Origin: Cellulophaga fucicola
GTDB lineage: Bacteria; Bacteroidota; Bacteroidia; Flavobacteriales; Flavobacteriaceae
Assembly (NCBI RefSeq): GCF_900119145.1
Contig: NZ_FPIY01000003.1
Location: forward strand, 162,299 to 226,298
Direction: 5' to 3'
Length of the DNA: 64,000 nt
The position numbers and the translations under genes are program-made. The notes beneath the pieces are model-generated. The model worked only from the letters and a program-made list of their open reading frames with translations. It did no database searches and was not told where the DNA came from. Below are positions 15,033 through 32,876 of the stretch, one piece after another. Position 1 is the first letter of the stretch. Each line of letters opens with the position of its first letter.

Positions 15033-15040
15033 CAAATATA
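15033..15040 (-). promoter_or_regulatory. -7 promoter box of the REC-GT2 gene
   Basis: On the minus strand this reads TATATTTG, a perfect match to the Bacteroidetes -7 consensus TAnnTTTG. The leader from there to the ATG would be about 55 nt. Confidence 0.75.
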
Positions 15041-15070
15041 TAACGTAATACTATTTAAAAACTTGACTTT

Positions 15071-15100
15071 AAGGTCGGTAACCATTTACTGTAGATGAAT
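15071..15100 (-). promoter_or_regulatory. LytTR-type binding site P1 (REC-GT2 / 15189 divergent region)
   Basis: Given as plus-strand text, the distal box is TAGATGAAT (15092-15100) and the proximal box a weak AAGGTCGGT (15071-15079), 12 bp apart. The proximal box lies 30 bp from the -7 box. The same geometry occurs at 22435, 24261 and 32826. The region also holds ACCATT..AATGGT (15081-15103) as an inverted repeat, so it might serve the divergent plus-strand operon too. Confidence 0.65.
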
Positions 15101-15149
15101 GGTTTTTAAGCCGGGACAACACACATTATATATTATGCTACAATATGCC

Positions 15150-15157
15150 TATCTTTA
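15150..15157 (+). promoter_or_regulatory. Possible -7 box of the 15189 operon
   Basis: TATCTTTA matches TAnnTTTG at 7 of 8 positions and lies 31 bp before the ATG at 15189. No clear -33 element is seen. Confidence 0.4.
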
Positions 15158-15188
15158 TCTTGTTATATATTCTTACAGGATTTAATTT

Positions 15189-18100
15189 ATGAAGAGAACC
15201 AATATTTTATTAATATTAGCTCTTATTATAGGCATCGCTTTTCACGGTTCAAGTATTTTCTTTACCCTAGAGAATACTTATGATGCCCTTATTCATTTAT
15301 TTTTTGCTGATCATTACGCTAATAGTTGGTTTGAGCCTTGGGATTTTCGTTGGTATACTGGCTTTACGGTACAAGCATACCCGCCACTGGTTCATCAACT
15401 AATTGCAATTTTATCATACATAGGTGGTTTAAAATTTGGAATGTTTTCCGTTGCCCTACTCGCCATTATCTTATTTATTACCGGTGCATACAGGTTTGGA
15501 TTACTAATGACTGCCAATAGGCGTGTTGCTGGCTACACTGCATTACTCGCTGTATTTTCATCTACCTTTATAGAGACACTACATATTTTTGGACAATTAC
15601 CTAGTATTATGGGGCTCTCCCTTTTACTACATAGCATCCCTGAGATTTATTTATGGATAAAAGAGGGTAAAATTAGATACTTAGTAACCAGTCTTTCTTT
15701 AATTGCTGTTACAGTAACATCTCATCATGTTACACCAATTTTCGGAATGGTATTCTTTATTTTTCCGCTTATTGGTATGGTGGTTATGGATACCGCAAGA
15801 GATACGGTAGACAAATCTAAAGACATTAATTTTAAAGTATTTTTAGCGGCCTTTAAAAAGCTTTTTTGGCGCATTGTAATCTTTGGCTTTTCATCGCTCT
15901 TACTAATTATATTTTGCATTTTACCGTACTGGATAAACTCTAAAAAAAATCCAATTACGCAGGTTCCTATACCGCATGGATCTAGAGATAACTTTTTAGA
16001 GGTGCTTTCTTCTGGGCTTGTATTTTTTATGATTCCTTGGGGGATTCTCTTGTTTATACTTCCGTACATTTTTTATAGATTTTATAGCAAAAGATATTTA
16101 TTTTTTGGACTCTCTTTTTCTATGCTTCTTGTTTTAGGAACTGGTGGCACAACACCTATTCCATTAAAATTATTAGGAGAAACAGCTTTTAACATTTTAA
16201 CCTTAGACCGCTTTACCCTTTGGGCTACTATTATGGCTTTGCCCATTTTTGGAGAATTTGCCTACCGAATGGTAGAAGGAGATTTAAAACAGAATTTACA
16301 AAAACGTTTTGGAGCTGTTTACCATAGAATTCTTGGCGGCTTTTTTATGGGTGGCATTCTCTTTATGGTAATTTTTACAATGAGCTTAGGATATTTTAGA
16401 CCATCGCAACCAGACAAAATAAAAATGTTGCCCATTGTAAACTTCTTAAATCAAGATCAGCATGATCATTGGCGCTACTTAACTCTTGGCTTTGGAGACC
16501 AAATGGCGTGGCTGTCTGCACAAACAAAAGCAATGACGGTAGATGGTAATTACCATTCTGCAAGACGCTTACCAGAGCTTACAACACGAGCTATAGAACG
16601 ATTAGAAAATTCTAAATTTAGGGGAGTAGAAGGCATTGGCTCTTTACAACAATTTTTAACCGTGCCGGAAAAATACAATTTAAAGTATATATTTTCTAAC
16701 GATAAGTTTTACGACCCTATTTTATATTACTGCGGATGGCAAAGGTTGCAGCAACTAGAAAACGGTATTATGGTTTGGGAAAAACTAAATGTACCACCCA
16801 TACCTGCCATTATACCTAAAGAAGATGTCTCTACCACTTTAAAAATAATGTGGAGCACCATACCTATATTAACTATTTTGTTTGCTTTTATTATAAACAT
16901 ACAATTGGTTTGGATACGTGTTTTAAAATCTAAAAAATTACCAGAACCGTCTTATCTAAAGTACAAACTTGTGTACAATAAGTTTTCTAGAAAATTAGTT
17001 ACCGTAAATCATATCTGGGCAGTAATTGTATTGGTTTGTTTGGCCTACGGCGGATATTTATTTTACGCTAAAAATACCACTCAGTTAAATGCTAAAAATG
17101 TAGTTACAGCGTATTACGATGCTATAGATTTTAAAGAGTTTGAAAGAGCTTTTTCTTATTTAAATCCCGATGATGATGTAAGCCTATCTCAATATATGCT
17201 AGAGGTATCTGTAACAGATGGTATTTTAAGTTCGTATGCCAAGTTAGATTCTATAGGCATTTCTTTTGTAAGCAGAACCAAAACTAGTGCTAGAGTAAAA
17301 GTTGACACTAGGTGGATAACACCATTAGAAGCAGTTAACAAAACCTATTACCATACCGTAAAGAAAAGAAAAAACAAGTGGTATATAAGTCCGTCTAAAA
17401 TTGATAATGACCTACCACCAGACCAATTATTTATAGATAACAATACTACCTTTTTTAATCATGGTAGGCGTAAAATTACAACAGAACAAACGCACCATGA
17501 AGATGTGTTAAAACAACCTATTTTAGAAATTTTAACTGCAAAGTTGGTAGAATATAATGGTAGATATAGCATTATTGGTCAACTACAAAACGTAGATAAT
17601 GTTCCTTGTGATGTTGTTATAAAAGGCACACTTTACAATCAAAAAAATAAAGAACTAGCCAACTACAATGCTAAAGACAATATTAAGCACAAACTTATGC
17701 CAAAGGAGATTACCTCTTTTAAAATAAATTTTGAAGGTATAGCCTGGTCATCAACAAAAGACACATTGCCGCCAACATTTAACCCAGATGAGTTTACACC
17801 TATTAATTTAGAAGAAATACCAACTAAATTTAACTTGCAATGCGCAGGTAATGTTGCCAATACAGATTTATATAAAAAATTGTCTTTACAAGAGTTAAAC
17901 TTTTCTAATGGCACAATGTCTGGCGCGTTATTTAATTCTGGTGTGCAAGAAGTTACCATACCACAGCTATTAATATCTTATTATGATGACGATAAAAAAT
18001 TAGTCTGGGTAGATCATAATTTTTTAACCGAAGGCGTACGCATACAACGAAAACAGTCTTTTAACTATGACTTGTTAGACTTAGAGAATTTACATATTAT

Positions 18101-18275
18101 TAATGATGATATGACAAACTGTTTTGTAAATGGTTCTCCAAATATTGAAATTGCAAAAAAAGTATTTCCCAATAGAAAAACAGAACATATAGCAGAACAA
18201 TTACAGGGGCAAACAGGAAAAGGTTTTAGTTTTATTAAACTAGAGATTAATAGTTACATAGGAAATCCAAAATAA
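15189..18275 (+). CDS. Large GT-C-like membrane protein (PTPS-related family) with NTF2-like and FxLYD-like C-terminal domains
   Basis: A 1028-residue membrane protein. Residues 1-420 hold about ten membrane segments, with a first loop YDALIHLFFADHYANSW..FRWYTGF of the type in GT-C glycosyltransferases and the 6-pyruvoyl-tetrahydropterin-synthase-related membrane family. A soluble part (~420-550) is followed by two more membrane segments (~555 and ~610). Residues ~635-740 look NTF2-like (VVTAYYDAIDFKEFERAFSYL). Beyond lie beta-rich FxLYD-like stretches (IIGQLQNVDNVPCDVVIKG). It is the best candidate to use a lipid-linked sugar made by the REC-GT2 enzyme. Function is inferred. Confidence 0.65.
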   Translation: MKRTNILLILALIIGIAFHGSSIFFTLENTYDALIHLFFADHYANSWFEPWDFRWYTGFTVQAYPPLVHQLIAILSYIGGLKFGMFSVALLAIILFITGAYRFGLLMTANRRVAGYTALLAVFSSTFIETLHIFGQLPSIMGLSLLLHSIPEIYLWIKEGKIRYLVTSLSLIAVTVTSHHVTPIFGMVFFIFPLIGMVVMDTARDTVDKSKDINFKVFLAAFKKLFWRIVIFGFSSLLLIIFCILPYWINSKKNPITQVPIPHGSRDNFLEVLSSGLVFFMIPWGILLFILPYIFYRFYSKRYLFFGLSFSMLLVLGTGGTTPIPLKLLGETAFNILTLDRFTLWATIMALPIFGEFAYRMVEGDLKQNLQKRFGAVYHRILGGFFMGGILFMVIFTMSLGYFRPSQPDKIKMLPIVNFLNQDQHDHWRYLTLGFGDQMAWLSAQTKAMTVDGNYHSARRLPELTTRAIERLENSKFRGVEGIGSLQQFLTVPEKYNLKYIFSNDKFYDPILYYCGWQRLQQLENGIMVWEKLNVPPIPAIIPKEDVSTTLKIMWSTIPILTILFAFIINIQLVWIRVLKSKKLPEPSYLKYKLVYNKFSRKLVTVNHIWAVIVLVCLAYGGYLFYAKNTTQLNAKNVVTAYYDAIDFKEFERAFSYLNPDDDVSLSQYMLEVSVTDGILSSYAKLDSIGISFVSRTKTSARVKVDTRWITPLEAVNKTYYHTVKKRKNKWYISPSKIDNDLPPDQLFIDNNTTFFNHGRRKITTEQTHHEDVLKQPILEILTAKLVEYNGRYSIIGQLQNVDNVPCDVVIKGTLYNQKNKELANYNAKDNIKHKLMPKEITSFKINFEGIAWSSTKDTLPPTFNPDEFTPINLEEIPTKFNLQCAGNVANTDLYKKLSLQELNFSNGTMSGALFNSGVQEVTIPQLLISYYDDDKKLVWVDHNFLTEGVRIQRKQSFNYDLLDLENLHIINDDMTNCFVNGSPNIEIAKKVFPNRKTEHIAEQLQGQTGKGFSFIKLEINSYIGNPK

Positions 18276-18278
18276 ATT

Positions 18279-19508
18279 TTGAAGCACTATATATACATAC
18301 TCGTTATACTTATATGCAGCTTTAGCTGCAGTAAAAGTGATGCTCCAAAAAAACAGGATACAAGTACTATAACATCTACACTAATAACTAAAAAAGATTC
18401 TTTTACAGCTGGTGACTCTATTGTATTAAAGTTTTCTTCAACCAAAGAAAATGAAGCTGTTTTAATAATAAAAAATGTATACGGAACTACGGTATTGCGC
18501 CCAAAGACAGACAAAGAAATATCGACCTATAAAATCCCTAATAGCTTTAGTAGTATTGCCAACAAAATACATTGGGAATTAATCTTAAATTCTAATAAAC
18601 TAGCAACAGGTAGCATACAAATTACAACGGACACAACTAAAAAAACCAAGCTAGAAACATATTTAGGACCAAGAAGTATTATTGCTGGCGGTAATGATTT
18701 TTCTATGCTTGTTAATGTTCCTACAGATTGGTTAGATAACCCAATGTTAGATGATACTAAAGTGGCCATAAAACATCAATTTAAAAAAGAGATTACAATA
18801 GACACTTTAAGAGTAAAAAATTTAGTTGCCTGGACAACTATTTATTCTCCTAAAAAAACAGGGCGTATTTTAATTACCTCTTTATCTAGCGGTACCAAAT
18901 CTAAAGAATTAACTTCTGTTATTTTGCCAGACAATGCATCTGACTTTACCATAGGTTATACTAGAAATCATAAATACGCAGATGGCAACCAAATTATTAC
19001 GTTTACATCGTCTACCATAAAAGACAATCACGGCAACATAGTTAGTGATGGTACTTTGGTTTTATTCTCGGTAAAAAACAGTAATGGCATACAATTACAA
19101 ACTAATGGCACCACTATTAATGGTGTTGCAAAAGCAAAATTATTACACCCAACAAAAAAAGAGTCTTGGGTAGTTACAGCATATGTTACTGGTGCAGCAA
19201 AAAGCAATAATTTGCCTGTAGATTTTGATGCTGCAATAGTAGACTACACAATTACTCTTTCTAAAGATAATAGAACTATAACTATTGGGCCAATAGAGAG
19301 TTTTATGCAACAATTGGTGCCAGACGGACTTGCCGTTAAAGCTACTATTTACGATGCTAATAAAATAGTCCTAAACACTAAAGAAACAACCACTTTAAAA
19401 GGGTTTGCAACATTTAATCTTGACAGTGATTTTTACAAATCTAACGACTACAATATAACAATTGAAGCCGCTGGCATTAAAAAAAATAAGACTCTACATT
19501 TAAGATGA
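18279..19508 (+). CDS. Lipoprotein of the exopolysaccharide locus, Ig-like domains, TTG start
   Basis: A 409-residue protein that begins at a TTG three bases after the previous stop. The start is supported because it gives a full lipoprotein signal (YILVILICSFSC, Cys 17). The rest is beta-rich. Residues ~20-125 look like a macroglobulin/Ig-like module (SFTAGDSIVLKFSST) and residues ~235-320 like a bacterial Ig-like domain (DGTLVLFSVKNSNGIQLQTNGTTINGVAKAKL). No catalytic motif is visible. It lies between a membrane glycosyltransferase-like protein and a glycosidase-like protein and overlaps the next gene by 4 bp, so it probably assists polymer assembly or export in the periplasm. Confidence 0.7.
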   Translation: MKHYIYILVILICSFSCSKSDAPKKQDTSTITSTLITKKDSFTAGDSIVLKFSSTKENEAVLIIKNVYGTTVLRPKTDKEISTYKIPNSFSSIANKIHWELILNSNKLATGSIQITTDTTKKTKLETYLGPRSIIAGGNDFSMLVNVPTDWLDNPMLDDTKVAIKHQFKKEITIDTLRVKNLVAWTTIYSPKKTGRILITSLSSGTKSKELTSVILPDNASDFTIGYTRNHKYADGNQIITFTSSTIKDNHGNIVSDGTLVLFSVKNSNGIQLQTNGTTINGVAKAKLLHPTKKESWVVTAYVTGAAKSNNLPVDFDAAIVDYTITLSKDNRTITIGPIESFMQQLVPDGLAVKATIYDANKIVLNTKETTTLKGFATFNLDSDFYKSNDYNITIEAAGIKKNKTLHLR

Positions 19509-21025: not shown

Positions 21026-21060
21026 AGGGGGAAACAGCTAACCATACTGTTCCCCCCTTT
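21024..21060. terminator. Bidirectional terminator between GH5-like and GT4 genes
   Basis: AAAGGGGGAAACAG (21024-21037) pairs with CTGTTCCCCCCTTT (21047-21060). On the minus strand the stem is followed by a T-run from the end of the plus-strand gene. Confidence 0.85.
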
Positions 21061-21063
21061 GGG

Positions 21064-21071
21064 CTTAACCT
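21064..21071 (-). other. AGGTTAAG in the 3' UTR of the GT4 gene
   Basis: Reading the minus strand, AGGTTAAG begins 10 nt after the GT4 stop and just before the terminator. It is identical to the core of the small-RNA-like repeats and complementary to the CTTAACCT next to the same gene's start codon. A matching AGGTTAAG lies just after the REC-GT2 stop (13821-13814). Confidence 0.5.
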
Positions 21072-21080
21072 AACCGTAAA

Positions 21081-22355
21081 TTATTTTGCTATAAGCTCAC
21101 TTGCAACTTCTTCTTCTTTCTTCATTTCTCTTTCCTTTTCTCTTTCTGCTATAATAGTATCAATACTTACGTTACCAGATTTAGCCATTTGTATTGCCGT
21201 AAAGTAATCTACATACATCTGTGTAATATCAGACATTGGTAAAGAACAAGCAGCTTTATAATTAGCTTTAGATAATTCTTCTCTATAATCGTCGTACGTT
21301 AATATGTTTTCTATTGCATCTGCTAAAGACTCAGCACTTTCTGGCTCAAAAAACTCACCTCTATAACCTTCTTCTTTAACTAGTATGCTTAAGTCTCCTA
21401 AATCTGGTAAAGCAACTGCCTTACCATAACTACCTGCTTGGTGCAATACACCAGAGCTACCTGTTGTAGATGTGTAAGGAAAAACAACTACAGCACTATC
21501 TCCAAAAATAACAGGCACATCCTCTTCTGCAACATAACCTGTAAACCTTAATTGGTCTACGTGGTTGTATTTTTTGCTCACTTCATTTAAATAACCTGGT
21601 GTGTTTGGGCTATCTGTACCTGCTATAACTATTTCTATATCTTGTTTTGTACGTTGGCGAATAATTTCTACTGCTTCTATTAAAACCTCAACTTTTTTAT
21701 AAGTTCCAAATTTTCCAAAAGCCATTACTTGCTTAGGTCCTTTAGGCAGCTCATAAGTTGGTTCTGGTGGAGTTTCAAAAGCACCGTGTGGTATTAAAGC
21801 AACATTTCTAGAATTATATTTATCTTCTAATATACTCTTGTATTTACTAATTGTAACGGCTAAAACATCTGAAGCTAAAACTACTTTTGTTAGTGTACTA
21901 CCAATAAAGTTATAAGCTTTCTTTAAAAAGTTATTTTTAGTGATACCTGCATTTTCTAAATCTACCTGCTCTAATATATTATGTAATAAAGAAATTGTTG
22001 GTATACCTTTTAATTTACATATTAATGGTAACATTAAACCTAACGCAGCAGGGACTTTTTTATCTCCAAATTTTAAAAACTGAAGGTTAAATAAAACTGC
22101 GTCTGGTTTAGTGTCTGCAATTGCACCCATAATACCAAAAACATTTTTGTAGCTATTAAAATCCCAGCATTCTTTAACTGTAATTTTACAACCATCTTCA
22201 GTAAAAGAAAGGTCTTTGGCTTCTTTGGTTTTGTCTGTAATTAAGACAATTTCAGTTACTTCTTTTTGTAATCTAAAATGTTTTACCAAGTGGTATCCGT
22301 ATTCTGTTAAAGTTACTTTACTTGGTGGGTACGCTGTTACAATTGCTAATTTCAT
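21081..22355 (-). CDS. GT4-family glycosyltransferase
   Basis: A 424-residue cytoplasmic enzyme with the GT-B fold. The N-terminal half starts MKLAIVTAYPPSKVTLTEYGYHLV. The C-terminal half has the GT4 pattern KQVMAFGKFGTYKKVEVLIEAVEII for donor binding, RFTGYVAEEDVPVIFGDSAVVVFPYTS, and GSSGVLHQAGSYGKAVALPDLGD in place of the usual E-x7-E segment. It should add a sugar to the growing repeat unit. The last ~30 residues are highly charged. The gene is monocistronic, with its own promoter, LytTR boxes and leader motif upstream and a strong terminator downstream. Confidence 0.88.
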   Translation of the reverse strand: MKLAIVTAYPPSKVTLTEYGYHLVKHFRLQKEVTEIVLITDKTKEAKDLSFTEDGCKITVKECWDFNSYKNVFGIMGAIADTKPDAVLFNLQFLKFGDKKVPAALGLMLPLICKLKGIPTISLLHNILEQVDLENAGITKNNFLKKAYNFIGSTLTKVVLASDVLAVTISKYKSILEDKYNSRNVALIPHGAFETPPEPTYELPKGPKQVMAFGKFGTYKKVEVLIEAVEIIRQRTKQDIEIVIAGTDSPNTPGYLNEVSKKYNHVDQLRFTGYVAEEDVPVIFGDSAVVVFPYTSTTGSSGVLHQAGSYGKAVALPDLGDLSILVKEEGYRGEFFEPESAESLADAIENILTYDDYREELSKANYKAACSLPMSDITQMYVDYFTAIQMAKSGNVSIDTIIAEREKEREMKKEEEVASELIAK

Positions 22356-22356
22356 A

Positions 22357-22382
22357 AGGTTAAGATTTTAAGGTTATTTGGG
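22357..22382 (-). promoter_or_regulatory. Leader motif CCCAAAT-N11-CTTAACCT one base before the GT4 start codon
   Basis: On the minus strand CCCAAAT (22382-22376) and CTTAACCT (22364-22357) are 11 nt apart, the same spacing as on the plus strand of the repeats at 42357-44250. Pairing with a minus-strand RNA from those repeats would cover the translation start. Confidence 0.6.
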
Positions 22383-22396
22383 TTAAATTTCTTATA

Positions 22397-22404
22397 CAAA
22401 TATC
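22397..22404 (-). promoter_or_regulatory. -7 promoter box of the GT4 gene
   Basis: On the minus strand it reads GATATTTG, one mismatch from TAnnTTTG. The 30-bp distance to the LytTR-type box is the same as at the other three promoters. Confidence 0.65.
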
Positions 22405-22434
22405 CATCTTAAACCCTTATTTAAAAGGCGATTA

Positions 22435-22464
22435 GAGACGAATCAACTATTACTATAGACGAAT
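22435..22464 (-). promoter_or_regulatory. LytTR-type binding site P2 (GT4 promoter)
   Basis: In plus-strand text GAGACGAAT (22435-22443) and TAGACGAAT (22456-22464) are direct repeats on a 21-bp period, with 12 bp between them. The proximal box is 30 bp from the -7 box. Confidence 0.75.
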
Positions 22465-23893: not shown

Positions 23894-24116
23894 TGCTAAA
23901 GATATAAGATGTGTTAGACAAAATCATTACTGGCGCAATTTGCTTATTCTCTTGGCCAACAATAGTTAAAACTTTATTGTTTTTGGCTACCTTAATATAT
24001 AATTGCTCTAATTGTTTAGCGCTAGAAAAAACTATTTCGTTTACTCTTTCTAGAGACAAAATTAATTTTTCGTTACGCTTTAAATAAAAATCGATATGGT
24101 TGTTAAGTGTCTTCAT
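23880..24116 (-). CDS. Small unknown protein coupled to the flippase
   Basis: A 78-residue protein, not recognised. It begins MKTLNNHIDFYLKRNEKLILSL, has a likely helical first half and a short beta-like end (KVLTIVGQENKQIAPVMIL). No signal peptide, membrane helix or cysteine pair is visible. The stop lies inside the flippase coding region in another frame (14-bp overlap), which suggests translational coupling and a joint role. It is the first full ORF of a LytTR-type transcript. Confidence 0.6.
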   Translation of the reverse strand: MKTLNNHIDFYLKRNEKLILSLERVNEIVFSSAKQLEQLYIKVAKNNKVLTIVGQENKQIAPVMILSNTSYIFSNDRV

Positions 24117-24152
24117 ATTCTGAGTGTTAAGATTTCCTTTTACTTCTAAAAA

Positions 24153-24182
24153 CTAGCTGTTATGATTAATTTGTAAAGCCAT
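24153..24182 (-). CDS. Possible nine-codon leader peptide upstream of the flippase operon
   Basis: In the predicted leader an ATG at 24182 opens a 9-codon frame (MALQINHNS) ending at TAG (24155-24153). CTTAACCT lies 13 nt before the ATG. It may be a regulatory uORF, or chance. Confidence 0.25.
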   Translation of the reverse strand: MALQINHNS

Positions 24183-24222: not shown

Positions 24223-24230
24223 CAAATATC
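24223..24230 (-). promoter_or_regulatory. -7 promoter box of the 78-aa/flippase operon
   Basis: On the minus strand it reads GATATTTG, identical to the GT4 box. Confidence 0.65.
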
Positions 24231-24260
24231 AGGGAACTTATTATCTTAAATTGGCGTCTG

Positions 24261-24290
24261 TAGACGACTAGACGTTTACTGTAGATGAAT
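24261..24290 (-). promoter_or_regulatory. LytTR-type binding site P3 (flippase / exporter divergent region)
   Basis: In plus-strand text TAGACGACT (24261-24269) and TAGATGAAT (24282-24290) form direct repeats on a 21-bp period, 30 bp from the -7 box. The site also lies upstream of the plus-strand TPR/YaiO gene and may serve both. Confidence 0.75.
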
Positions 24291-24408
24291 GGTTAGGTTT
24301 TCTCTTTAAATAAAAAATTAGTTCTGTATTAATTAAATAAAACAAAGCACTAATAAATCTAAAATGTATTCGTTATATTACTGTAGTAATAACCCTACCT
24401 GTTCTATA

Positions 24409-26484
24409 ATGAGAAAATTTGCATCCTTTTTTATATTCCTTATTACCATATCTTTAACCGCACAAGAAGACTTTACTCCTGGTTTTAAATTGTTAGAGAA
24501 TGGAGATTTTAAAGAAGCAAAAACATTTTTTGAACCCTTTACAAAAAGCTTACCTACAAACAAAACTGTTTTAATTTGTTATGGTAGAGCAGTTGGTTTA
24601 AGCGGTGAACCAGAGGTAGCTAATACAATATTTAAAGACCTACTAAAAAAGCACCCTAATGATTTTGAAGTACAGATAAATTATTACGAATCTTTTTTAT
24701 GGGCAAATCAATACCAAGAAGCCAAACCTTTATACGCAGACTTAGTTGCTAAAAATCCTGAAAATTTTGCTGCAATACTAGGGTATGCAAACACATTAAG
24801 TAATTTAAAGGAATACAAAGACGCTTTAAAATGGGTTAACAAAGCTCTAGAAATAGATCCTAATAACGGTAGTGCTAAAGTATCTAGAAAATACATTAAA
24901 CTTGGCTATGCTAATTACTATGTAAATAACCAGAATTACAAAAAGGGAGAGAGCCTATTAAACGAAATATTAGAAGATTTTCCGGATGATAAAGATGCAC
25001 TATTAAACCTAGCTAATATCTTTTTAATTACTAAGGAGGTAAAAAAAGCTAAAGAAACGTATTATAAATACGCTAAAACACCTAAAGACTCTATTACAGC
25101 TCTAAATGGTGTTGCTCTAGCAGAGCATATAGGAGAAAAAGAAAAAATAGCTCTAGAAACGGCTATTAACGCTAAACAAAAAGCAATTAAACTTAAAGAT
25201 ACCGAACTTTTAGAAAAAAGTGAAGAACGTTATGTACAAGCCTTAATCTGGAATAGAAAATTTGTCTCCGCGAAAAAAGAAATTAGTGTCTTAGAAGAAA
25301 AATATCCAAATCGTAATTGGGTTCTGGCTTTAAAAGCTACCTTGGGTATGTACACTGCTAAATTTAAAACCAGCATTACAAACTATGATAAAATATTAGT
25401 CAACGATAGTCTTTCTTTTGATGGTAACTTAGGTAAAGCAAATGCATTATTTGCGTCTGATAAAATTGTACCTGCATACATAACTACATATAAAACCTTA
25501 GATATTTTTCCGAAACAGAAAGATGCCTCTGGCTTAATTAAAAAATTAAATACAAACTACACGCCATTTGCAGAACAACAAGTTAGCTACACGTTTGATA
25601 ATGGCGATAATACGGCAATATCTTTAAGAAGTGCTGTTATGGTTCCGTTATCTACTAAATTTAGAACAACGGTATCTTATCAATATAGAACCACAGAAAA
25701 TACCACAACAAACAACAAGGCAAATTCGCATATTGTACAAGCAGACATTGAATATAAGTTGATGCCACAAACTAATTTATTAACCTCTGTTGGACTTAAC
25801 AACTCTAGGTTTTCTAACACAGCGTACACACAACCTATTATTCAGGCTAAATTACAAATGAAGCCTTTGTCTTTTTTAAACCTAGATTTAGGATACCAAA
25901 GAGAAGTACAAAACTTTAATGCCGAGTTAATAGAAAGAGAAATTGTGATGAACCATTATAGCTTAATCTACAACTTAAGCACAAACTTTAATTTAGGCTG
26001 GTATAGCCAATTAATACACACAAAACAGACAGACAACAACGAAAGAAACCTTTTATTTACTTCTTTATATTACAATGTATTACGCAAACCTGCCTTAAAA
26101 TTTGGTGTAAACTACCAATACATAACATTTAAAGATCAGTTACCATTAATATATTTTAGCCCAGATAAGTACAAAGCTTTAGAACTATTTGGGGACGTTA
26201 GAGGTAAAATAAACTCTAAAACTAATTATTTTGCAAGTGCAGCTACAGGTCTACAGTATGTAGAAGAACAAGATGCTAGTTCTCTCTTTAGAGCAGAAGC
26301 TGGAGTAACACATCAATTTTCTGATAGATTAATAGGTGATATATATGCTAAGTATAGTAATATAGCATCTGCTACAGCTGCCGGTTTTGAGTTTACAGAA
26401 GTAGGTATTAAACTAAAATACTACTTAACTAAGCAGCCTTTATTTTTAGATAGATTGAAGAAAAAATACAGTATAAACAAATAA
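24409..26484 (+). CDS. TPR plus YaiO-type beta-barrel outer-membrane protein, likely polysaccharide exporter
   Basis: I use the ATG at 24409 because it gives a clear signal peptide (MRKFASFFIFLITISLTAQ). An in-frame ATG at 24364 would add 15 polar residues. The mature protein has TPR-like helical repeats over its first ~380 residues (LEIDPNNGSAKVSRKYIKLG, FPDDKDALLNLANIFL) and a YaiO-like barrel of about 12-14 strands at the C-terminus (SYTFDNGDNTAISLRSAV, NLDLGYQREVQNFNAEL). The architecture parallels PgaA and BcsC, where periplasmic TPRs feed a polymer into a barrel. Next to a flippase and glycosyltransferases, an export role is likely. Confidence 0.82.
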   Translation: MRKFASFFIFLITISLTAQEDFTPGFKLLENGDFKEAKTFFEPFTKSLPTNKTVLICYGRAVGLSGEPEVANTIFKDLLKKHPNDFEVQINYYESFLWANQYQEAKPLYADLVAKNPENFAAILGYANTLSNLKEYKDALKWVNKALEIDPNNGSAKVSRKYIKLGYANYYVNNQNYKKGESLLNEILEDFPDDKDALLNLANIFLITKEVKKAKETYYKYAKTPKDSITALNGVALAEHIGEKEKIALETAINAKQKAIKLKDTELLEKSEERYVQALIWNRKFVSAKKEISVLEEKYPNRNWVLALKATLGMYTAKFKTSITNYDKILVNDSLSFDGNLGKANALFASDKIVPAYITTYKTLDIFPKQKDASGLIKKLNTNYTPFAEQQVSYTFDNGDNTAISLRSAVMVPLSTKFRTTVSYQYRTTENTTTNNKANSHIVQADIEYKLMPQTNLLTSVGLNNSRFSNTAYTQPIIQAKLQMKPLSFLNLDLGYQREVQNFNAELIEREIVMNHYSLIYNLSTNFNLGWYSQLIHTKQTDNNERNLLFTSLYYNVLRKPALKFGVNYQYITFKDQLPLIYFSPDKYKALELFGDVRGKINSKTNYFASAATGLQYVEEQDASSLFRAEAGVTHQFSDRLIGDIYAKYSNIASATAAGFEFTEVGIKLKYYLTKQPLFLDRLKKKYSINK

Positions 26485-26513
26485 AGCCCTAACACATAGC
26501 TAAGGCTTTATTT
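26480..26513. terminator. Bidirectional terminator between exporter and LytTR regulator genes
   Basis: AAATAAAGCC (26479-26488) pairs with GGCTTTATTT (26504-26513), with T-rich flanks on both strands. Confidence 0.8.
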
Positions 26514-26533
26514 ATATTTTAGTTAAACTTAAC

Positions 26534-27253
26534 TTATAATAAGTTTAATCTTCTCATTAGTTCTGGTCTATTAGACCTGCTTATAGGCACTACATTTTTT
26601 TCTATTAACACACTATTATCTTCTATATCTATAATCTTAGTAAAGTTTATAATGTAAGATCTGTGTATTTGTAAAAACAGCTTTTCTGGTAATTTATCTT
26701 TAATTTTCTTTAGTGTATTACGCACTCTATAAGTTTCTTTTACTGTTTTAACTTCTATATAATCTCCTTTGGCTTCTATTAACTGTATGTCGTTAAAATT
26801 TATTTTTATTAATCGTCTATCTATATTAATATATAGCTCTTCGCCAAGTTCTGAGTTAGATGATGCACTTTCCGTCACTGCCTCTACTTTTGGTTGTTGA
26901 GAAAGTGATTTCTTCACTTTTTGTATCGATTTTTCAAAACGCTCTAATGTAACTGGCTTAACCAAATAATCTACAATAGCCTCGTACTCATAAGCTTCTA
27001 TTGCAAAATTTGTATCAGAAGTAGTTAAAACTATTTTTGGTGGATTTTTTAATGTCTGCACAAAATCGAAACCACTAAAACCAGGCATATGTATATCTAA
27101 AAAGATAACATCTACTGTATTCTGATTTAAAAATTTTATAGCCTCTATTGCGCTACTAAAATCATCTATAACATCTAAGTTATCTATTTTAGAGCATAGC
27201 TGAGATACAATTAGCCTTGCTGTTGCTTCGTCATCTACTATAATACAATTCAT
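26534..27253 (-). CDS. LytTR-family response regulator
   Basis: A 239-residue DNA-binding response regulator. Residues 1-120 are a REC domain (IVDDE, phospho-acceptor Asp53 in IFLDIHMPGFSG, KPVT). Residues ~140-239 are a LytTR domain (LYINIDRRLIKINFNDIQLIEAKGDYIEV, QIHRSYIINFTKI, PISRSNRPELMRRL). LytTR proteins bind two 9-bp direct repeats about 12 bp apart. Four such sites lie in this window, at the exopolysaccharide promoters and at the promoter of this gene's own operon. It starts 3 bp after the Hpt gene and is probably the output of the cascade. Confidence 0.94.
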   Translation of the reverse strand: MNCIIVDDEATARLIVSQLCSKIDNLDVIDDFSSAIEAIKFLNQNTVDVIFLDIHMPGFSGFDFVQTLKNPPKIVLTTSDTNFAIEAYEYEAIVDYLVKPVTLERFEKSIQKVKKSLSQQPKVEAVTESASSNSELGEELYINIDRRLIKINFNDIQLIEAKGDYIEVKTVKETYRVRNTLKKIKDKLPEKLFLQIHRSYIINFTKIIDIEDNSVLIEKNVVPISRSNRPELMRRLNLL

Positions 27254-27256
27254 ATT

Positions 27257-27574
27257 CTAAATGGTTTTTAGGTAGCTAGTTATTTTATCTAGTATCTGTT
27301 TAAATTCTGAGTCTAATTTAAAATTACCTTCTCTTAGCTCGTCTTCATAAGTAACAGCCAATCCGTAGGCTTTTTCTAGTCCTAGTATATTAAACTTGTG
27401 TTTTAATTTATGTACAATATCTGCTGTAGCAATATGGTCTTTAGTATTAACTCCTGTACTGTACGTCTGTACTTCTCCAGGGAATTCTTTTTTTATAATA
27501 GCTATAAATTCGTTTAAAAATTCTTGGTTACCGTCTGCTAACGTATTTACGTAATTAAGATTAGGCTGTTCCAT
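27257..27574 (-). CDS. Hpt-domain phosphotransfer protein
   Basis: A 105-residue single-domain histidine phosphotransfer protein. His55 lies in IVHKLKHKFNILGLEKA, matching the HxLK..x..LG signature. It should shuttle phosphate between receiver domains. The start overlaps the upstream kinase gene by 14 bp. The locus contains three receivers that could exchange with it (single REC, LytTR regulator, REC-GT2 fusion), but no kinase here carries its own REC domain. Confidence 0.88.
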   Translation of the reverse strand: MEQPNLNYVNTLADGNQEFLNEFIAIIKKEFPGEVQTYSTGVNTKDHIATADIVHKLKHKFNILGLEKAYGLAVTYEDELREGNFKLDSEFKQILDKITSYLKTI

Positions 27575-28637
27575 TCTGTTCTTTTTTAATAGTGAAGTAA
27601 AATGTAGTTCCTTCGTTTTCTTTTGATTCTAAACAGATTTCACCCTCATAGAAATTTACAATTTTTTCTACTAATGCCAGACCTATTCCATTAGATTCTA
27701 CATCATTATCTAACTTTTTAAACATTTCAAAAATTTTGCTTTGGTACTTTGCCGGAATTCCTTTACCATTATCTTTTACAGCAAACCTCCAAAATTTATC
27801 ATCTTCTTTATAACTAATACTTATTATACCTTTATTTAAATGCTCTGTAGCTTTAACGGCATTGGTAAGTAAGTTCATAAACAACTGATCTAATCTATAC
27901 TTATCTATATGTATTGTTGGCAGTTTATCTTCTATTGTAATTGTAACGTTTTCTGGCACATATATAGTACTCTCTATATCATTTATAAGTTGCGTTAAAT
28001 CTACATTACTTTTAGTTTCTTCATTAGCCCCAATGGTAGCATGTTTTAAAATGCCACTAATTAGATTGTCCATTTTTATTAAGTTCTGCGATATTAATGA
28101 GCAGTTATTTAAACTGTCCTCTGCAAACTTGTGCTTTTCTTCTTCCACAATCCAACTCATTAGCGTATTTATGTTACGCATTGGAGATTTTAAATCATGA
28201 GATACTACGTGCGCATAGTTATTTAAAGACTTATTTTGTTCCTCCAAATCCTTTACAAGCTTATCTTTTTCTACAGTAACCATTGCAATATGTTCTGCCT
28301 GTTTACTAATATGCTTTGCTAGCATTTGAGCACTTACTATATTAGATCCAGTATTAACAACATTTTCTGTATTTCCTAAGTTAATATTTAAGCTATTAAT
28401 GGCTTTTTCTAGTGCCTCTAATGTTTTGTTTTGTTCTTTTGCCTCTGCTGCTAGTTCTAAATTTGCTGCTTTTAATTCTTGTGCACTAATAGTTGTTGCA
28501 CGTTGTATCATAGCAATTTTATCGTCATAATCTTCATAAGATTTTTCTACCGCACTAAATAGCAATGCTAAGTCTGCATCATTTTTAAACTTTTCTGGCA
28601 AATTTTTTCGGATTTGTCTTTTTAGTAGTGAATGCAT
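27561..28637 (-). CDS. Cytoplasmic sensor histidine kinase paired with the FIST protein
   Basis: A 358-residue kinase without membrane segments or a visible PAS domain. Residues ~25-70 (LALLFSAVEKSYEDYDDKIAMIQRATTISAQEL) resemble the N-terminal region of kinases found next to NO sensors. A coiled coil leads to the H box (YAHVVSHDLKSPMRNI, His147). The ATPase part follows with N (QLFMNLLTNAVKAT), G1 (VKDNGKGIP) and G2 (GIGLALVEKIV). Its start overlaps the stop of the FIST gene by one base, which suggests that the FIST protein controls it, as NosP controls its kinase in other bacteria. Confidence 0.88.
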   Translation of the reverse strand: MHSLLKRQIRKNLPEKFKNDADLALLFSAVEKSYEDYDDKIAMIQRATTISAQELKAANLELAAEAKEQNKTLEALEKAINSLNINLGNTENVVNTGSNIVSAQMLAKHISKQAEHIAMVTVEKDKLVKDLEEQNKSLNNYAHVVSHDLKSPMRNINTLMSWIVEEEKHKFAEDSLNNCSLISQNLIKMDNLISGILKHATIGANEETKSNVDLTQLINDIESTIYVPENVTITIEDKLPTIHIDKYRLDQLFMNLLTNAVKATEHLNKGIISISYKEDDKFWRFAVKDNGKGIPAKYQSKIFEMFKKLDNDVESNGIGLALVEKIVNFYEGEICLESKENEGTTFYFTIKKEQNGTA

Positions 28638-29770
28638 TACTCGCTAATTAAAGTTAAAGTCATTGTTTGGTTGTGCAGCTTACAGGCATTGTCACCCTCA
28701 AAAGGTGCCATTTCTCCGTAAGAATAATATCCTATGATTTTAGATTGGCTACCTATTACATCTAAAACCTCTTCTACTTCTTCTTCTGTTCTTTGGTCCA
28801 TAACTAGTTTACGGCCAATGCAACTTACAAGTAATGTAAGTTCTGGTTTGTTTTTTCTGTTCCTAGATGCGTATATAGCCGCTTTATTTGCGCCTTCTGC
28901 AATATCATCTACAGTAGACATCATTAATTGTACAATAGAACCTTCTGGCACATCACCAGCTAAAATCATTGTATTTGCTGTTTCATCAATATTTAAAATT
29001 GTGCGCACAATAGGCTCTGCATCTTCATCTGTTTTTACACTTAAAGGGTATAATAATGCCGATTTAGGCAACTCATTTGCTTTTTCTCCTAAATACTTTT
29101 TATAAAGGTCTAATGCTGGTTTGCCATCTAACTCATATAAAATATTTCCTTTAGACTTTGTAATAATACGTTCTGGCCCAAAACCTGTCCAGCCTCCATA
29201 ATTAGCACTAGTAATCTCTAATGTTTTACCATAAAAACCAATGGCAACAATTTCACCTTCTTTAGGACTCTCATTATAAGCTGTTAACGTTCTTTCAAAA
29301 CGATCATCGTCTCCGCATAAACCACCAGACAAACCTATAGATATATGTTTTTCTTTTTCTATTCCGGCAATTAAAGCACTGCCATTTACTGTACTACCCT
29401 CAGATACTACGTATATATGTTTAAGGTCTTTTTTAGGAAATTCTGATATTAATTGCGATCCTAAATCAAGCTCATTATTATTAAATTCTTTTACGTTTTT
29501 ACTCTTAACTATATAACTCGACTTTTCAAATTCTATAGCCGTTAATACAATTGAATTATCAGTTACACTATCGCCTAAAATTTCACCAGAAGTACTACCA
29601 AATACTATATTTCCGTTAGGAAACATTTGTTTAATCTCTGTATATAGGTTTACATCCTCTAACATATATCTATTGCCAAAAACCAATACCAAAGGGTTGT
29701 TTAAAGCTACCTTTTTGGTTGTAAATTTAAAACTAGAGCCATTATTTTTTTTTGCTTGTACTATTTTCAT
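28637..29770 (-). CDS. FIST-domain (NosP-like) sensor protein
   Basis: A 377-residue soluble protein with FIST_N followed by FIST_C. N-terminal marks are NPLVLVFGNRYML, NIVFGSTSGEILGD and ISIGLSGGLCGDDDRFERT. C-terminal marks are GNILYELDGKPALDLYKKYLG, ASRNRKNKPELTLLVSCIGRKLVM and IIGYYSYGEMAPF. FIST proteins include the heme-based NO sensor NosP, which regulates a kinase encoded beside it. Here kinases lie on both sides. Heme binding cannot be seen in the sequence, so NO sensing is inferred. Having a FIST and an H-NOX in one operon is uncommon. Confidence 0.88.
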   Translation of the reverse strand: MKIVQAKKNNGSSFKFTTKKVALNNPLVLVFGNRYMLEDVNLYTEIKQMFPNGNIVFGSTSGEILGDSVTDNSIVLTAIEFEKSSYIVKSKNVKEFNNNELDLGSQLISEFPKKDLKHIYVVSEGSTVNGSALIAGIEKEKHISIGLSGGLCGDDDRFERTLTAYNESPKEGEIVAIGFYGKTLEITSANYGGWTGFGPERIITKSKGNILYELDGKPALDLYKKYLGEKANELPKSALLYPLSVKTDEDAEPIVRTILNIDETANTMILAGDVPEGSIVQLMMSTVDDIAEGANKAAIYASRNRKNKPELTLLVSCIGRKLVMDQRTEEEVEEVLDVIGSQSKIIGYYSYGEMAPFEGDNACKLHNQTMTLTLISE

Positions 29771-29774
29771 AACT

Positions 29775-31754
29775 CTAATTAATGTTTTTTTTAAGTGTGA
29801 AAAAGAATTTTGTTCCTTCTCCTAATTCACTTTCTATCCAAACTTTACCTTGGTAGCGATCTACAATTTTTTTAACTATTGATAAGCCTATTCCTGTAGA
29901 ACGCTCGTTGTCTCCTATAGATTGAAAAATTTCGAATATCTTTTTATGAAATTTCTCTGGTATACCAACACCGTTATCTTCTATACAAAATTGCCAATGT
30001 TCTTTTTGCTCTGTAAACAGTACTTTTACAACTCCTTCTTTTTTTTCTATATGCACAACAGCATTTCCAATTATATTCTGAAATAATTGATGAATTTTAG
30101 TACTGTCTGCATTTAACAACGGAAGTTTTTCTGGTACAACTACAGTTACGTGTTCTGGTATATAAATACTGTCTTTTATATCTGTAATAATAGTATTTAA
30201 ATCTACTTTAGCTTTAGACATTTGCGAGCTTCCGGCAGTAGAATACTCTAAAATACCGTGAATTAACTTGTCCATAAAAGCAACCTTCTCTTGCATAAGT
30301 GTTAGGTTTTGCACGCCAGCTTCATCTAACACATCTTTATAATCTTCATAAGTCCAAGTTGCTAATGCACTTATACTACGCAATGGTGATTTAAGATCAT
30401 GAGATACTATATGTGCATACTCTTGCAAACCATCATTACTAATTTTTAATTCTTTAAGTAATTGTTCTTTTTGTTCTTCTAACTTTTTTTGATCTGTAAT
30501 ATCTAAATGAATACCAATAGAACCAACAACCTTACCTTCTACGTTATATCTTGGAGCGCCACTAACAAGCCAATCTCTTATTTCTCCGTTTTTATTAGAT
30601 ATTTTAATCTCGTAAGAATCTGAAATTCCTTCTAGCCTTTTACGCGTTTTTTCTTCTACGGCTTTATTGTTTTGTAACTTTAATACATCTACTGCATTTT
30701 TACCAATAAGTTCTTCTTTGGTAAAACCACTCATAGAGCAAAAGCATTGATTAACCATCTGAATTTCATCATCAATAGTTATCTCTATTAAACCAAGATT
30801 CATATTAGCTATAATACCACTGTATTTATCTTTTTCTGCTTTAATTTGCTCTTCTGCTTTTCTCTCTTTTGTAATATCTTCTATTACAGAAACCTGATAT
30901 TCTACCTCTCCTTTATCATTTTTAACAACACTTACATTGGTTTTTGCTAAAATTATAGAGCCATCTTTTTTAAAGTATTTTTTTACAGTTGAAAAGTTAT
31001 CTAAAAGCCCTGCAGTCATTTCTGCAACCTGCTTTTCTGTAGCTTCCACATCTTCGGGTTCAGAAATATTTGACAATTTTATTTCCTCCAATACGGCATT
31101 TTCATACCCTAAAAGGTTTGTAAATGCAGTGTTAGATTTTATTATTTTATCGTCAACAGTTAAAACAATACCTAGTGGAGAATTTTCTACAATAATATCT
31201 AATTGCTTTTTTTGCTCGTTAAGTAATTCTTTAATTTCGGTTTCCTGACTAATATCTCTTATTATACCTTGGGCTCCTATTGGCTTTAAGTTTTTATCAT
31301 AAATAACACTTGTATTTATTTGTATCCACTTATAGCTACCATCTTTTAAAATAATTTTAGCTCTGTAATTTTTTAACGTCCCAATTTCTAGCAATCGCTG
31401 AAAAGACTCTATAGTGTATTGTATAAAATCTTTGTGTACTAATTTGGGTAGGCTAATGGTTTCTTTAGTGTTGTCATAGCCCAGAAAGTCTCGGGCAGAC
31501 TTATTCATATTTACAACATTAAAATTTAGATCCATAACAACATACGGGTCTATAATATTAACAAAACCACCATCTAATTGCGATGTTGTTTCTGTTAACA
31601 AATTTTCTAATTTGTTGTTTGCCTGTTTAAGGTGTAGCGCAGTATCAAAAAGCTCCTTAGATTTATCTTCTAAAATTTTCTCTGCCTGTATTCTCGCTTT
31701 TTTTTGTCTTTCTAATGCCCTTTTTAGCAAGTGTATTTCTTTCTCACTATCCAT
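29775..31754 (-). CDS. Multi-PAS sensor histidine kinase paired with H-NOX
   Basis: A 659-residue cytoplasmic kinase. An N-terminal coiled coil (EIHLLKRALERQKKARIQAEKI) is followed by three PAS domains (about 65-185, 190-305 and 310-430), the H box EYAHIVSHDLKSPLRSI near residue 455, and an ATPase domain with N box (LFQNIIGNAVVHI), IEDNGVGIPEKF and STGIGLSIVKKIV. No membrane segment is present. It overlaps the H-NOX gene by 8 bp, the usual arrangement for an H-NOX and its target kinase. In known pairs unliganded H-NOX leaves the kinase active and NO-bound H-NOX inhibits it. Confidence 0.92.
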   Translation of the reverse strand: MDSEKEIHLLKRALERQKKARIQAEKILEDKSKELFDTALHLKQANNKLENLLTETTSQLDGGFVNIIDPYVVMDLNFNVVNMNKSARDFLGYDNTKETISLPKLVHKDFIQYTIESFQRLLEIGTLKNYRAKIILKDGSYKWIQINTSVIYDKNLKPIGAQGIIRDISQETEIKELLNEQKKQLDIIVENSPLGIVLTVDDKIIKSNTAFTNLLGYENAVLEEIKLSNISEPEDVEATEKQVAEMTAGLLDNFSTVKKYFKKDGSIILAKTNVSVVKNDKGEVEYQVSVIEDITKERKAEEQIKAEKDKYSGIIANMNLGLIEITIDDEIQMVNQCFCSMSGFTKEELIGKNAVDVLKLQNNKAVEEKTRKRLEGISDSYEIKISNKNGEIRDWLVSGAPRYNVEGKVVGSIGIHLDITDQKKLEEQKEQLLKELKISNDGLQEYAHIVSHDLKSPLRSISALATWTYEDYKDVLDEAGVQNLTLMQEKVAFMDKLIHGILEYSTAGSSQMSKAKVDLNTIITDIKDSIYIPEHVTVVVPEKLPLLNADSTKIHQLFQNIIGNAVVHIEKKEGVVKVLFTEQKEHWQFCIEDNGVGIPEKFHKKIFEIFQSIGDNERSTGIGLSIVKKIVDRYQGKVWIESELGEGTKFFFTLKKNIN

Positions 31755-32289
31755 TCTGTACTATATCAAATTTAACTTCTGTTCCGTTATCGTTTAAAAG
31801 TTGATACGTTACTGTAGCTGTACTATTAAAATGCTCAAAAGACTTTTCTATTAGACCATGTGCTAACTGGTATAAACCTCTAGACGAAGAATAAACCATA
31901 GAAATAGATGTATCTGTTTTTTCTAAAATTTTAAATGTAGGCAACTCAGCATCAGGATACAGTTTTTTAACATGTACATGAATGTGGTCTTCTATAGAGT
32001 ATAATAAACTTAAAGGAGAATTATAGCTTTTTATTACTTCTGGGTGTGCGCTTGCCAAACCATTAAATAAAAATAAGCCAAATGCGTAGATTAAATCTCC
32101 TACTGGCGTTTTAACTTCTGTGCTTAGACTGGTAATAAGACTTACCATTTCGTTAAAACTATAGGTACCAACAGAGGTATAAATTCCTTCTGATGGTAAA
32201 TTAGAATTTTCTATAATATTATCTACAGTTTCTAATCCAAACTTAGATTCTACCATTTCTAAAAACTCTGTAAACACAACTCCTTTCAT
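31747..32289 (-). CDS. hnoX: H-NOX heme nitric oxide sensor
   Basis: A 180-residue HNOB/H-NOX protein. The opening MKGVVFTEFLEMVESKFGLE and GTYSFNEMVSLITSLS are hallmark sequences. The proximal heme ligand is His104 in DHIHVHVKKLYPDA, and the heme propionate motif YxSxR is Y133-S135-R137 in MVYSSSRG. Length is normal for a stand-alone H-NOX. It senses NO and controls the kinase encoded by the overlapping next gene. In other bacteria such pairs control biofilm formation, which fits the exopolysaccharide genes next door. Confidence 0.97.
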   Translation of the reverse strand: MKGVVFTEFLEMVESKFGLETVDNIIENSNLPSEGIYTSVGTYSFNEMVSLITSLSTEVKTPVGDLIYAFGLFLFNGLASAHPEVIKSYNSPLSLLYSIEDHIHVHVKKLYPDAELPTFKILEKTDTSISMVYSSSRGLYQLAHGLIEKSFEHFNSTATVTYQLLNDNGTEVKFDIVQNG

Positions 32290-32366
32290 ACTTAGACATT
32301 TAAGTAATTAAAAGTAAGAAAAATAACACCTGCAGTGTAATTTTTGTTGTGAAACGCGTTAAATCA

Positions 32367-32768
32367 TTAGCCTTTTACTAGTTCGTTGTTGTCCCAGTAG
32401 TTAAGAACACTTTGCATTTTAGTCTCGTAGTCCTCATATTTAAGGGGTTTAATAACATAACCGGCAATGCCAATTCTATAACACTCTAATAGATCTGCTC
32501 TATTTTCTGATGTAGTTAATATAATTGTAGGCAAGTATCTTAAAGTATCATCTGCCTTTAAAATAGACAAAAACTCTATACCACTCATTCTTGGCATATT
32601 TAAATCTAACAAAATAATGTCTGGTAAAGTATTACCAGATTTTAATATATCTAGAGCTTCCTCTCCATTCTTCGCCTCTGTTATTTTATGTTTTAATTGA
32701 AGCTTAGAAACTGTTCTTTTCAGCTTCATCGTCTCTATCATGTCGTCTTCAATAAATAAAATATTCAT
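32367..32768 (-). CDS. Single-domain response regulator
   Basis: A 133-residue stand-alone REC domain: acidic pair EDD at 7-9, phospho-acceptor Asp55 in LLDLNMPRMSG, LTTSE, and KPLK as the conserved Lys. There is no output domain. It is the first gene of the signalling operon, 77 bp before the H-NOX gene, behind a promoter with LytTR boxes. It may act as a phosphate sink, as an intermediate feeding the Hpt protein, or through protein contacts. Confidence 0.9.
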   Translation of the reverse strand: MNILFIEDDMIETMKLKRTVSKLQLKHKITEAKNGEEALDILKSGNTLPDIILLDLNMPRMSGIEFLSILKADDTLRYLPTIILTTSENRADLLECYRIGIAGYVIKPLKYEDYETKMQSVLNYWDNNELVKG

Positions 32769-32787
32769 AGTTCTAAATTTTATATTG

Positions 32788-32795
32788 CAAATATA
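32788..32795 (-). promoter_or_regulatory. -7 promoter box of the NO-signalling operon
   Basis: On the minus strand it reads TATATTTG, identical to the REC-GT2 box and a full match to TAnnTTTG. Confidence 0.75.
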
Positions 32796-32825
32796 ACTGC
32801 ACTATTTTAATTAATTTGTAGGGCA

Positions 32826-32876
32826 ATGTTCAATAGTAATTTAGTGTAGACGAATGGTAGTTTTTTGTAGTTGAAT
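32826..32876 (-). promoter_or_regulatory. LytTR-type binding site P4 (signalling operon, autoregulation)
   Basis: In plus-strand text the boxes are ATGTTCAAT (32826-32834, weak), TAGACGAAT (32847-32855) and TAGTTGAAT (32868-32876), all on a 21-bp period. The strong middle box lies 51 bp past the -7 box, exactly where TAGAYGAAT lies in the other three promoters. The rest of the 180-bp gap shows no further feature. Confidence 0.7.

Follow-up and report, generated by a model that had tools for sequence, protein, structure and literature searches.

Promoter elements and genes of the locus

The DNA investigated here is a stretch of 64,000 nucleotides from Cellulophaga fucicola (RefSeq assembly GCF_900119145.1, contig NZ_FPIY01000003.1, positions 162,299 to 226,298), referred to as the window. 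It carries an operon for a predicted nitric oxide (NO) sensor of the H-NOX family, two histidine kinases and a response regulator with receiver (REC) and LytTR domains, together with genes of a probable exopolysaccharide module (Table 1). Four minus-strand promoters, P1 to P4, share one element, for which the LytTR protein is proposed as the binding regulator. In each of them the -7 box and the proximal box are separated by 30 bp and the two boxes by 12 bp, as read directly from the sequence and recomputed. This shared layout had been described in the initial annotation, and all of its coordinates, boxes and spacings proved exact; the extra box that it had noted at P4 on the 21-bp period, ATTCAACTA, is present as well. 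TAnnTTTG is the -7 box of Bacteroidota, and by the numbering convention for this box the repeat closest to it spans roughly -42 to -50.

Table 1. Promoter elements and genes of the locus, with positions in the window, strand and supporting details.
Feature	Position	Strand	Details
P1 element	15033..15100	-	-7 box TATATTTG 15033-15040; boxes 15071-15079 ACCGACCTT, 15092-15100 ATTCATCTA; precedes REC-GT2; 50.4 bits
P2 element	22397..22464	-	-7 box GATATTTG 22397-22404; boxes 22435-22443 ATTCGTCTC, 22456-22464 ATTCGTCTA; precedes GT4; 45.8 bits
P3 element	24223..24290	-	-7 box GATATTTG 24223-24230; boxes 24261-24269 AGTCGTCTA, 24282-24290 ATTCATCTA; precedes STAS gene and flippase; 51.0 bits
P4 triple element	32788..32876	-	-7 box TATATTTG 32788-32795; boxes 32826-32834 ATTGAACAT, 32847-32855 ATTCGTCTA, extra 32868-32876 ATTCAACTA; precedes REC/H-NOX operon; 43.2 bits
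Single-domain receiver (REC)	32367..32768	-	PF00072 6.6e-21
H-NOX haem NO sensor (predicted)	31747..32289	-	PF07700 2.8e-39
PAS histidine kinase	29775..31754	-	PF13426, PF02518
FIST protein, NosP-like	28637..29770	-	PF08495/PF10442; NosP NF041558 69 bits, cut-off 450
Second histidine kinase	27561..28637	-	PF02518 9.9e-24
Hpt-like phosphotransfer protein	27257..27574	-	PF01627 0.00075, below Pfam cut-off
REC-LytTR response regulator (proposed binder)	26534..27253	-	PF00072 2.5e-18, PF04397 4.4e-20
REC-GT2, receiver fused to family 2 glycosyltransferase	13820..14971	-	PF00072 5.1e-26, PF00535 3.1e-23
GT4 (family 4) glycosyltransferase	21081..22355	-	PF00534 4.8e-20
Probable Wzx/MOP-type flippase, 411 residues	22658..23893	-	PF13440 in relatives; all-helical AlphaFold2 model, pLDDT 88.7
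STAS-domain gene, interrupted	23900..24182	-	in-frame TAG at codon 10 (24155-24153); relatives match PF01740
TPR followed by 16 long beta-strands	24364..26484	+	Pfam TPR; AlphaFold2 model, strands residue 402 to 687, pLDDT 90.2

Searches of the organism's own genome covered the 3.92-Mb assembly of 21 contigs. The 9-mer ATTCRTCTA alone occurs in 8 copies in the window against 1.18 expected, so that by itself it is not decisive, and counts of 9-mers as sole criterion gave no discrimination; decisive is the box at its fixed distance from the -7 box. With up to three mismatches allowed, this fixed-spacing element was found at the four window sites with 0 mismatches and at one other place with 3, and the reversed pattern, used as control, gave 8 places. 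A looser search (ATTCRTC N{45,61} ATNTTTG) returned 12 places versus 15 in the reversed control, and among the 12 the complete ATTCRTCTA is present only at the four window sites. A degenerate pattern of the second box was given up in favour of the fixed-distance patterns, as its 6 matches included only three of the four window sites, versus 3 matches in the reversed control. The expectation that few genome matches would lie outside the four promoters is borne out by the fixed-spacing search, with no other place at 0 mismatches, and the four-site pattern is far beyond chance. The genome holds 17 LytTR domains; at the other 16 LytTR loci no element was found within 3.3 kb, the best box score being 2.4 (1.5 kb viewed on each side of the domain).

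Conservation of the element in relatives

Relatives were taken as the best 80 of 344 loci from one scan with the H-NOX protein (L018-L097), which gives 81 sequences with the window. The closest H-NOX relative in named genomes belongs to Cellulophaga sp. 20_2_10 (L018), with 100% identity over 180 residues. In 98 sequences (the window, the 80 H-NOX loci and 17 LytTR loci of the own genome) ATTCRTCTA is followed by ATNTTTG at 35-69 bp in 36 pairs, four of them from the window and two from the near-identical L018; 32 have the distance 52 and 2 the distance 51. A weight matrix was built from 30 sites, with the window included and L018 left out, and has the consensus CCATTCGTCTACAGYAA N5 CATCCRYC ... 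GATATTTG. Scanning the 81 sequences with this matrix yielded 148 sites of at least 14 bits versus 1 in reversed sequence, and 73 of the 81 hold at least one site. All 144 sites in L018-L097 are oriented with the operon. The gene within 700 bp behind the 148 sites is REC in 65 cases, the 411-residue flippase in 14, GT4 in 14, STAS in 13 and REC-GT2 in 5; the remaining 37 are followed by an unannotated gene (20), no open reading frame (ORF; 11) or the end of the locus (6). As the matrix was partly trained on the scanned loci, the weight rests on the reversed control and on tests outside them. Independent of the training are this control, the pattern search of 249 genomes described below and the third box.

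The 9-bp boxes of the initial annotation were recovered; their extent had to be corrected, since in relatives conservation of the unit (CCATTCGTC) already sets in two bases before the box, with a conserved TACAGYAA after it. The repeat unit is a direct repeat CCATTCGTC-TACAGYAA with a 21-bp period, often with a weaker third copy. Similarity to CCATTCGTCTA amounts to 0.86 at offset 0, 0.65 at +21 and 0.44 at -21, compared to a median of 0.26; the upstream (third) copy was not included in the weight matrix. Mean information per column is 1.50 and 0.97 bits in the two box stretches, 0.19 in the spacer and 0.07 in the upstream flank, where the boxes belonged to the scoring matrix and the spacer and flank did not (the logos exclude L018, repeated sequences and cut stretches). 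In the -33 region TTG is depleted, with 13 of 144 sites versus 24.2 in shuffled spacers.

One strong element (44 bits; L073:15454) lies directly after LytTR and has no ORF of at least 90 residues within 700 bp on the same strand. By eye, a terminator-like hairpin follows it, and the position may belong to a small RNA or to a small gene since lost.

Linkage to the LytTR orthologue

To the same set of 249 Flavobacteriaceae genomes the strict pattern, the H-NOX protein and the LytTR protein were applied. Orthologues of the window LytTR score at least 229 bits and paralogues at most 210 bits. The strict pattern occurs at 87 places, with a spacing of 52 in 63 of them, 51 in 14, 53 in 7, 54 in 2 and 50 in 1. 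A LytTR orthologue is present in 43 of the 44 genomes with a spacing-52 place, and such a place was found in 1 of the 150 genomes without the orthologue (Fisher p 1.8e-19). Of the 63 strict places, 55 have the LytTR gene no more than 30 kb away. H-NOX is present in 95 of the 249 genomes and in 91 of the 99 with LytTR. Divided by both genes, the strict element occurs in 41/91 genomes with LytTR and H-NOX, 2/8 with LytTR only, 0/4 with H-NOX only and 1/146 with neither. H-NOX presence had been considered as the explanatory variable (41/44) and was displaced by LytTR presence (43/44), because three genomes (G004, G055 and G145) separate the two.

Among the 56 LytTR-positive genomes without a strict place, 20 neighbourhoods of the gene were checked, and the matrix detected sites in 17 of them (39 in total, 0 in reversed sequence), versus 1 of 20 control regions; these genomes are mostly misses of the pattern. 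Some of the 20 neighbourhoods lie in genomes also reached by the H-NOX scan, and the controls comprise loci of LytTR paralogues and H-NOX loci lacking LytTR as well as arbitrarily placed stretches, the one from G172 having 346 bases. Only one further genome of this genus, G172, was among those sampled; it yielded neither a LytTR orthologue nor H-NOX nor a strict site.

Natural variants, in which H-NOX and LytTR lie apart, were examined separately. Upstream of REC the best box reaches 7.2-29.8 bits in 79 of the 81 loci with a box-only matrix. The control for these scores includes true sites, so that its 99th percentile is high (19.4, exceeded by 32 of 81 REC promoters); all 79 loci at or above 7.2 exceed the 95th percentile of 5.4. 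The two exceptions, with -0.3 and -1.3, come from Euzebyella (L094) and Pseudozobellia (L097); apart from them, every LytTR-less locus is a short contig. The two genomes (G145 and G010) encode a LytTR orthologue elsewhere, with 77-78% and 72-74% identity, beside a second copy each of REC and the flippase, joined in Euzebyella by a second GT4. Four sites were found at one of these separate loci (L136) and three at the other (L137); at the H-NOX loci of the two genomes (L140, L187) there is no site of at least 12 bits. In a third genome (G194) the H-NOX locus has no site (REC upstream 5.9) and the LytTR locus has sites of 50.5 and 29.3 bits. Altogether, five genomes carry H-NOX and LytTR apart, with boxes only at the LytTR locus in three and at neither locus in two.

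The converse case is provided by two genomes that lack H-NOX. One (G004, L138) keeps REC-PAS kinase-Hpt-LytTR with the polysaccharide genes and sites of 28.9 and 13.6 bits, and the other (G055, L139) PAS kinase-Hpt-LytTR at a contig end, likewise with the polysaccharide genes, and sites of 31.2 and 33.1 bits. Where present, the elements accompany LytTR rather than H-NOX. Conserved before orthologous genes, co-occurring with the LytTR orthologue and placed at its locus where the two are apart, they support what the initial annotation had suggested, namely LytTR sites and a regulon including autoregulation. As judged from sequence, the link of the elements to the LytTR protein at 26534-27253 is strong.

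At three REC-LytTR loci apart from the H-NOX operon (L136, L137, L182) no kinase or Hpt is in view, and LytTR there may depend for its phosphate on the Hpt that the H-NOX operon encodes at another genomic position. In G152 a LytTR-like remnant, about 39 residues long and with 72% identity (L183, 5104-5220), closes the H-NOX operon; the full orthologue lies at L184, and neither locus has strong elements.

Proposed circuit and alternatives

We propose, with a probability of about 0.86, that the REC-LytTR protein uses the four elements as operators, through which it would activate its own operon and the exopolysaccharide module. The protein would bind direct repeats (CCATTCGTC) that recur with a 21-bp period in two or three copies, all on the same face of the DNA. 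About 30 bp separate the end of the nearest repeat from the -7 box, and the -33 TTG is usually missing. This fixed distance and the depleted TTG make activation likely. Targets would be the regulator's own operon of REC, H-NOX, PAS kinase, FIST, second kinase, Hpt and LytTR (autoregulation at P4) and the STAS-flippase, GT4 and REC-GT2 genes. H-NOX and the NosP-like FIST protein may report NO to the two kinases, from which Hpt could pass phosphate to the receivers. With a receiver in LytTR as well as in REC-GT2, a single phosphate flow could set expression as well as activity of the polysaccharide machine. The elements, their conservation and their linkage to LytTR are covered by sequence evidence, from which we infer binding, activation, NO input and phosphorelay.

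Several points weigh against this proposal. The proximal boxes are weak at P1 and P4, and the scores in the window and the H-NOX loci are not independent of a matrix trained on them. For eight of the 63 strict places LytTR is more than 30 kb away, on another contig or missing from the genome. Two LytTR neighbourhoods (L156, L160) have no sites and a third (L158) remains just below the threshold, while one control region (L168) has a site without LytTR; it keeps REC, H-NOX, PAS kinase and a FIST fragment. The genome G091 was scored LytTR-less although its contig stops inside the operon. Neither locus has a site of at least 12 bits in G152 and G167, two of the genomes with H-NOX and LytTR apart. 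Finally, activation rather than repression, likely as it is, is read from geometry.

With 17 LytTR domains in the genome and LytTR sites being alike in layout, the elements might be bound by a different regulator, another LytTR protein or a global factor, that governs the same genes. This is quite improbable, as only one of the 150 genomes without the orthologue has the strict element though 93 of them encode a LytTR paralogue with an E value of 1e-40 or lower; no element was found at the remaining 16 LytTR loci of the own genome in the 1.5 kb viewed on either side of the domain, and the separated loci described above carry boxes solely beside LytTR or not at all. Similarity by chance or by kinship, inherited without function, is practically negligible: flanking sequence is common to related species, yet the boxes stand far above the spacer and upstream flank in information, and the same element occurs at four different promoters of one genome. 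The LytTR protein could also bind these sites and repress. CoxC, a LytTR repressor, has three repeats overlapping the -35 box (PMC11347149). Repression is nevertheless unlikely here, with the nearest repeat upstream of the -33 region, a fixed spacing and a depleted TTG, as for activation, and with AgrA sites centred near -60 (PMC4227749).

More serious, though still doubtful, is the alternative that the regulator is real and NO is not its signal, H-NOX and FIST being accessory to a core that answers another cue via the PAS kinase. Eight of the 99 LytTR-positive genomes have no H-NOX, the two H-NOX-less loci L138 and L139 keep their sites, and a FIST match above 40% identity is missing in 21 of 67 full-length loci. 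On the other hand, 91 of the 99 genomes do carry H-NOX, and in C. fucicola two potential NO sensors lie in the regulator's own operon. The name of an NO-signalling operon, given in the initial annotation, therefore holds for the window, where H-NOX lies beside a histidine kinase, but not as a general rule, as H-NOX and the FIST-kinase part are missing from some members. From the gene contents compared, the core is REC-PAS kinase-Hpt-LytTR with the polysaccharide genes, and H-NOX and the NosP-like FIST are common but optional inputs.

Control of the LytTR protein over its own operon and the module, as preferred here, could be part of a wider scheme. No GGDEF match was obtained in the genome with a family search that was positive in 8 of 14 control genomes and did not include EAL or PilZ; with none found, NO control would not use synthesis of cyclic di-GMP (c-di-GMP). 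Tentatively, and at somewhat less than even odds, we suggest a circuit from NO to matrix that is independent of c-di-GMP and widespread in marine Flavobacteriaceae. In it, H-NOX and the NosP-like sensor would feed one Hpt phosphorelay with two branches, one to the LytTR activator of the exopolysaccharide genes and one directly to the receiver of REC-GT2, itself the product of such a gene, which would make a feed-forward loop. The REC-kinase-Hpt-LytTR core would be older, and H-NOX a module plugged into it.

Comparison with known systems

LytTR regulons and H-NOX operons are each of kinds already known. Sites of LytTR proteins consist of two direct repeats of about 9-11 nt with 10-13 nt between them (11-13 nt in PMC4847170), mostly upstream of the core promoter (PMC4847170, PMC11347149), and RcoM and CoxC have three repeats (PMC11347149). 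A regulator with receiver and LytTR domain, repeats of about 9 bp that are 10-13 bp apart and co-occurrence across genomes were all found here. The direct-repeat layout upstream of the promoter is that of the AgrA, VirR, YpdB, RcoM and CoxC operators and fits an activator site; the probe printed for YpdB contains GGCATTTCAT twice at the same 21-bp period. Different from these operators are the new consensus CCATTCGTC-TACAGYAA, the Bacteroidota -7 box and the exopolysaccharide targets.

As in the H-NOX/histidine kinase systems of Vibrio, Shewanella and Legionella, H-NOX here adjoins a histidine kinase and receivers. Their outputs are c-di-GMP enzymes, quorum-sensing relays and iron uptake, compared to a LytTR regulator gene here, and FIST/NosP proteins occur near H-NOX, as far as the accessible part of PMC8738867 covers them. 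Output via c-di-GMP synthesis, usual but not universal for H-NOX, is not indicated in this genome. Like NosP, the FIST domains lie beside a histidine kinase; assignment as NosP fails, with only 69 bits versus the NCBIfam equivalog cut-off of 450. Neither a LytTR output of H-NOX nor a LytTR operator code in Flavobacteriaceae was described among the open-access matches listed, a body that leaves subscription literature mostly outside. If the proposal is true, it provides a regulator with a defined operator code and a short list of targets, as well as natural variants, and NO-matrix coupling in a bacterium without GGDEF proteins becomes directly testable. The operator code would then also be a tool for annotating the LytTR regulon in Flavobacteriaceae.

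Genes of the exopolysaccharide module

REC-GT2, GT4 and the flippase had been named as the targets, and all three lie behind P1, P2 and P3; the first gene at P3 is, however, the small STAS gene, followed by the flippase. Pfam gave no match for the 411-residue protein of the window, whereas 16 of the 24 proteins in its alignment match PF13440; searching solved structures by sequence gave nothing useful. All three STAS relatives scanned match PF01740, and the gene is open over 100 residues in the near-identical L018, so the window copy looks recently interrupted.

PgaA, PelB and BcsC represent polysaccharide export systems with TPR porins. The product of the divergent TPR gene has likewise TPR followed by 16 strands in the model, which recalls an outer-membrane barrel of this export porin type, and GT4 and flippase genes adjoin it. 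In NCBIfam these two receive no PelF or PelG assignment. On the plus strand (15189-21025) lie genes for a 1028-residue membrane protein without Pfam match, a 409-residue protein with weak Ig-like similarity and a 506-residue glycoside-hydrolase-like protein. The same trio adjoins GT4 and flippase in L138 and L158 and is probably part of the polysaccharide module.

Further genes behind LytTR

A gene for a hydrophobic protein of 36-37 residues follows LytTR at a distance of about 130 bp in 14 of 73 loci, 12 of the 14 directly behind a LytTR element (L024:15490, L025:14055, L027:13668, L031:13667, L033:13666, L034:7350, L038:15522, L039:14051, L043:14052, L050:14059, L065:13297, L072:14062, L080:15491 and L081:9179). 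Codons with a single change, compared pairwise among nine 36-residue copies, were synonymous in 457 cases and not in 103, versus 159 and 401 expected (the pairs are not independent). The gene is absent behind the window LytTR, and a 36-residue query matched only G185 among the 249 genomes, a query length to which the first-look filter is probably ill suited. The protein is a candidate for a new small regulon member.

After LytTR in L025, L027, L028, L034, L039 and others, a cluster of proteins of 830-957 residues is found behind 13 LytTR elements. The one member scanned, from L027, matched DUF4114 and a type IX secretion tail, and the cluster may represent a matrix protein that is secreted and belongs to the regulon.

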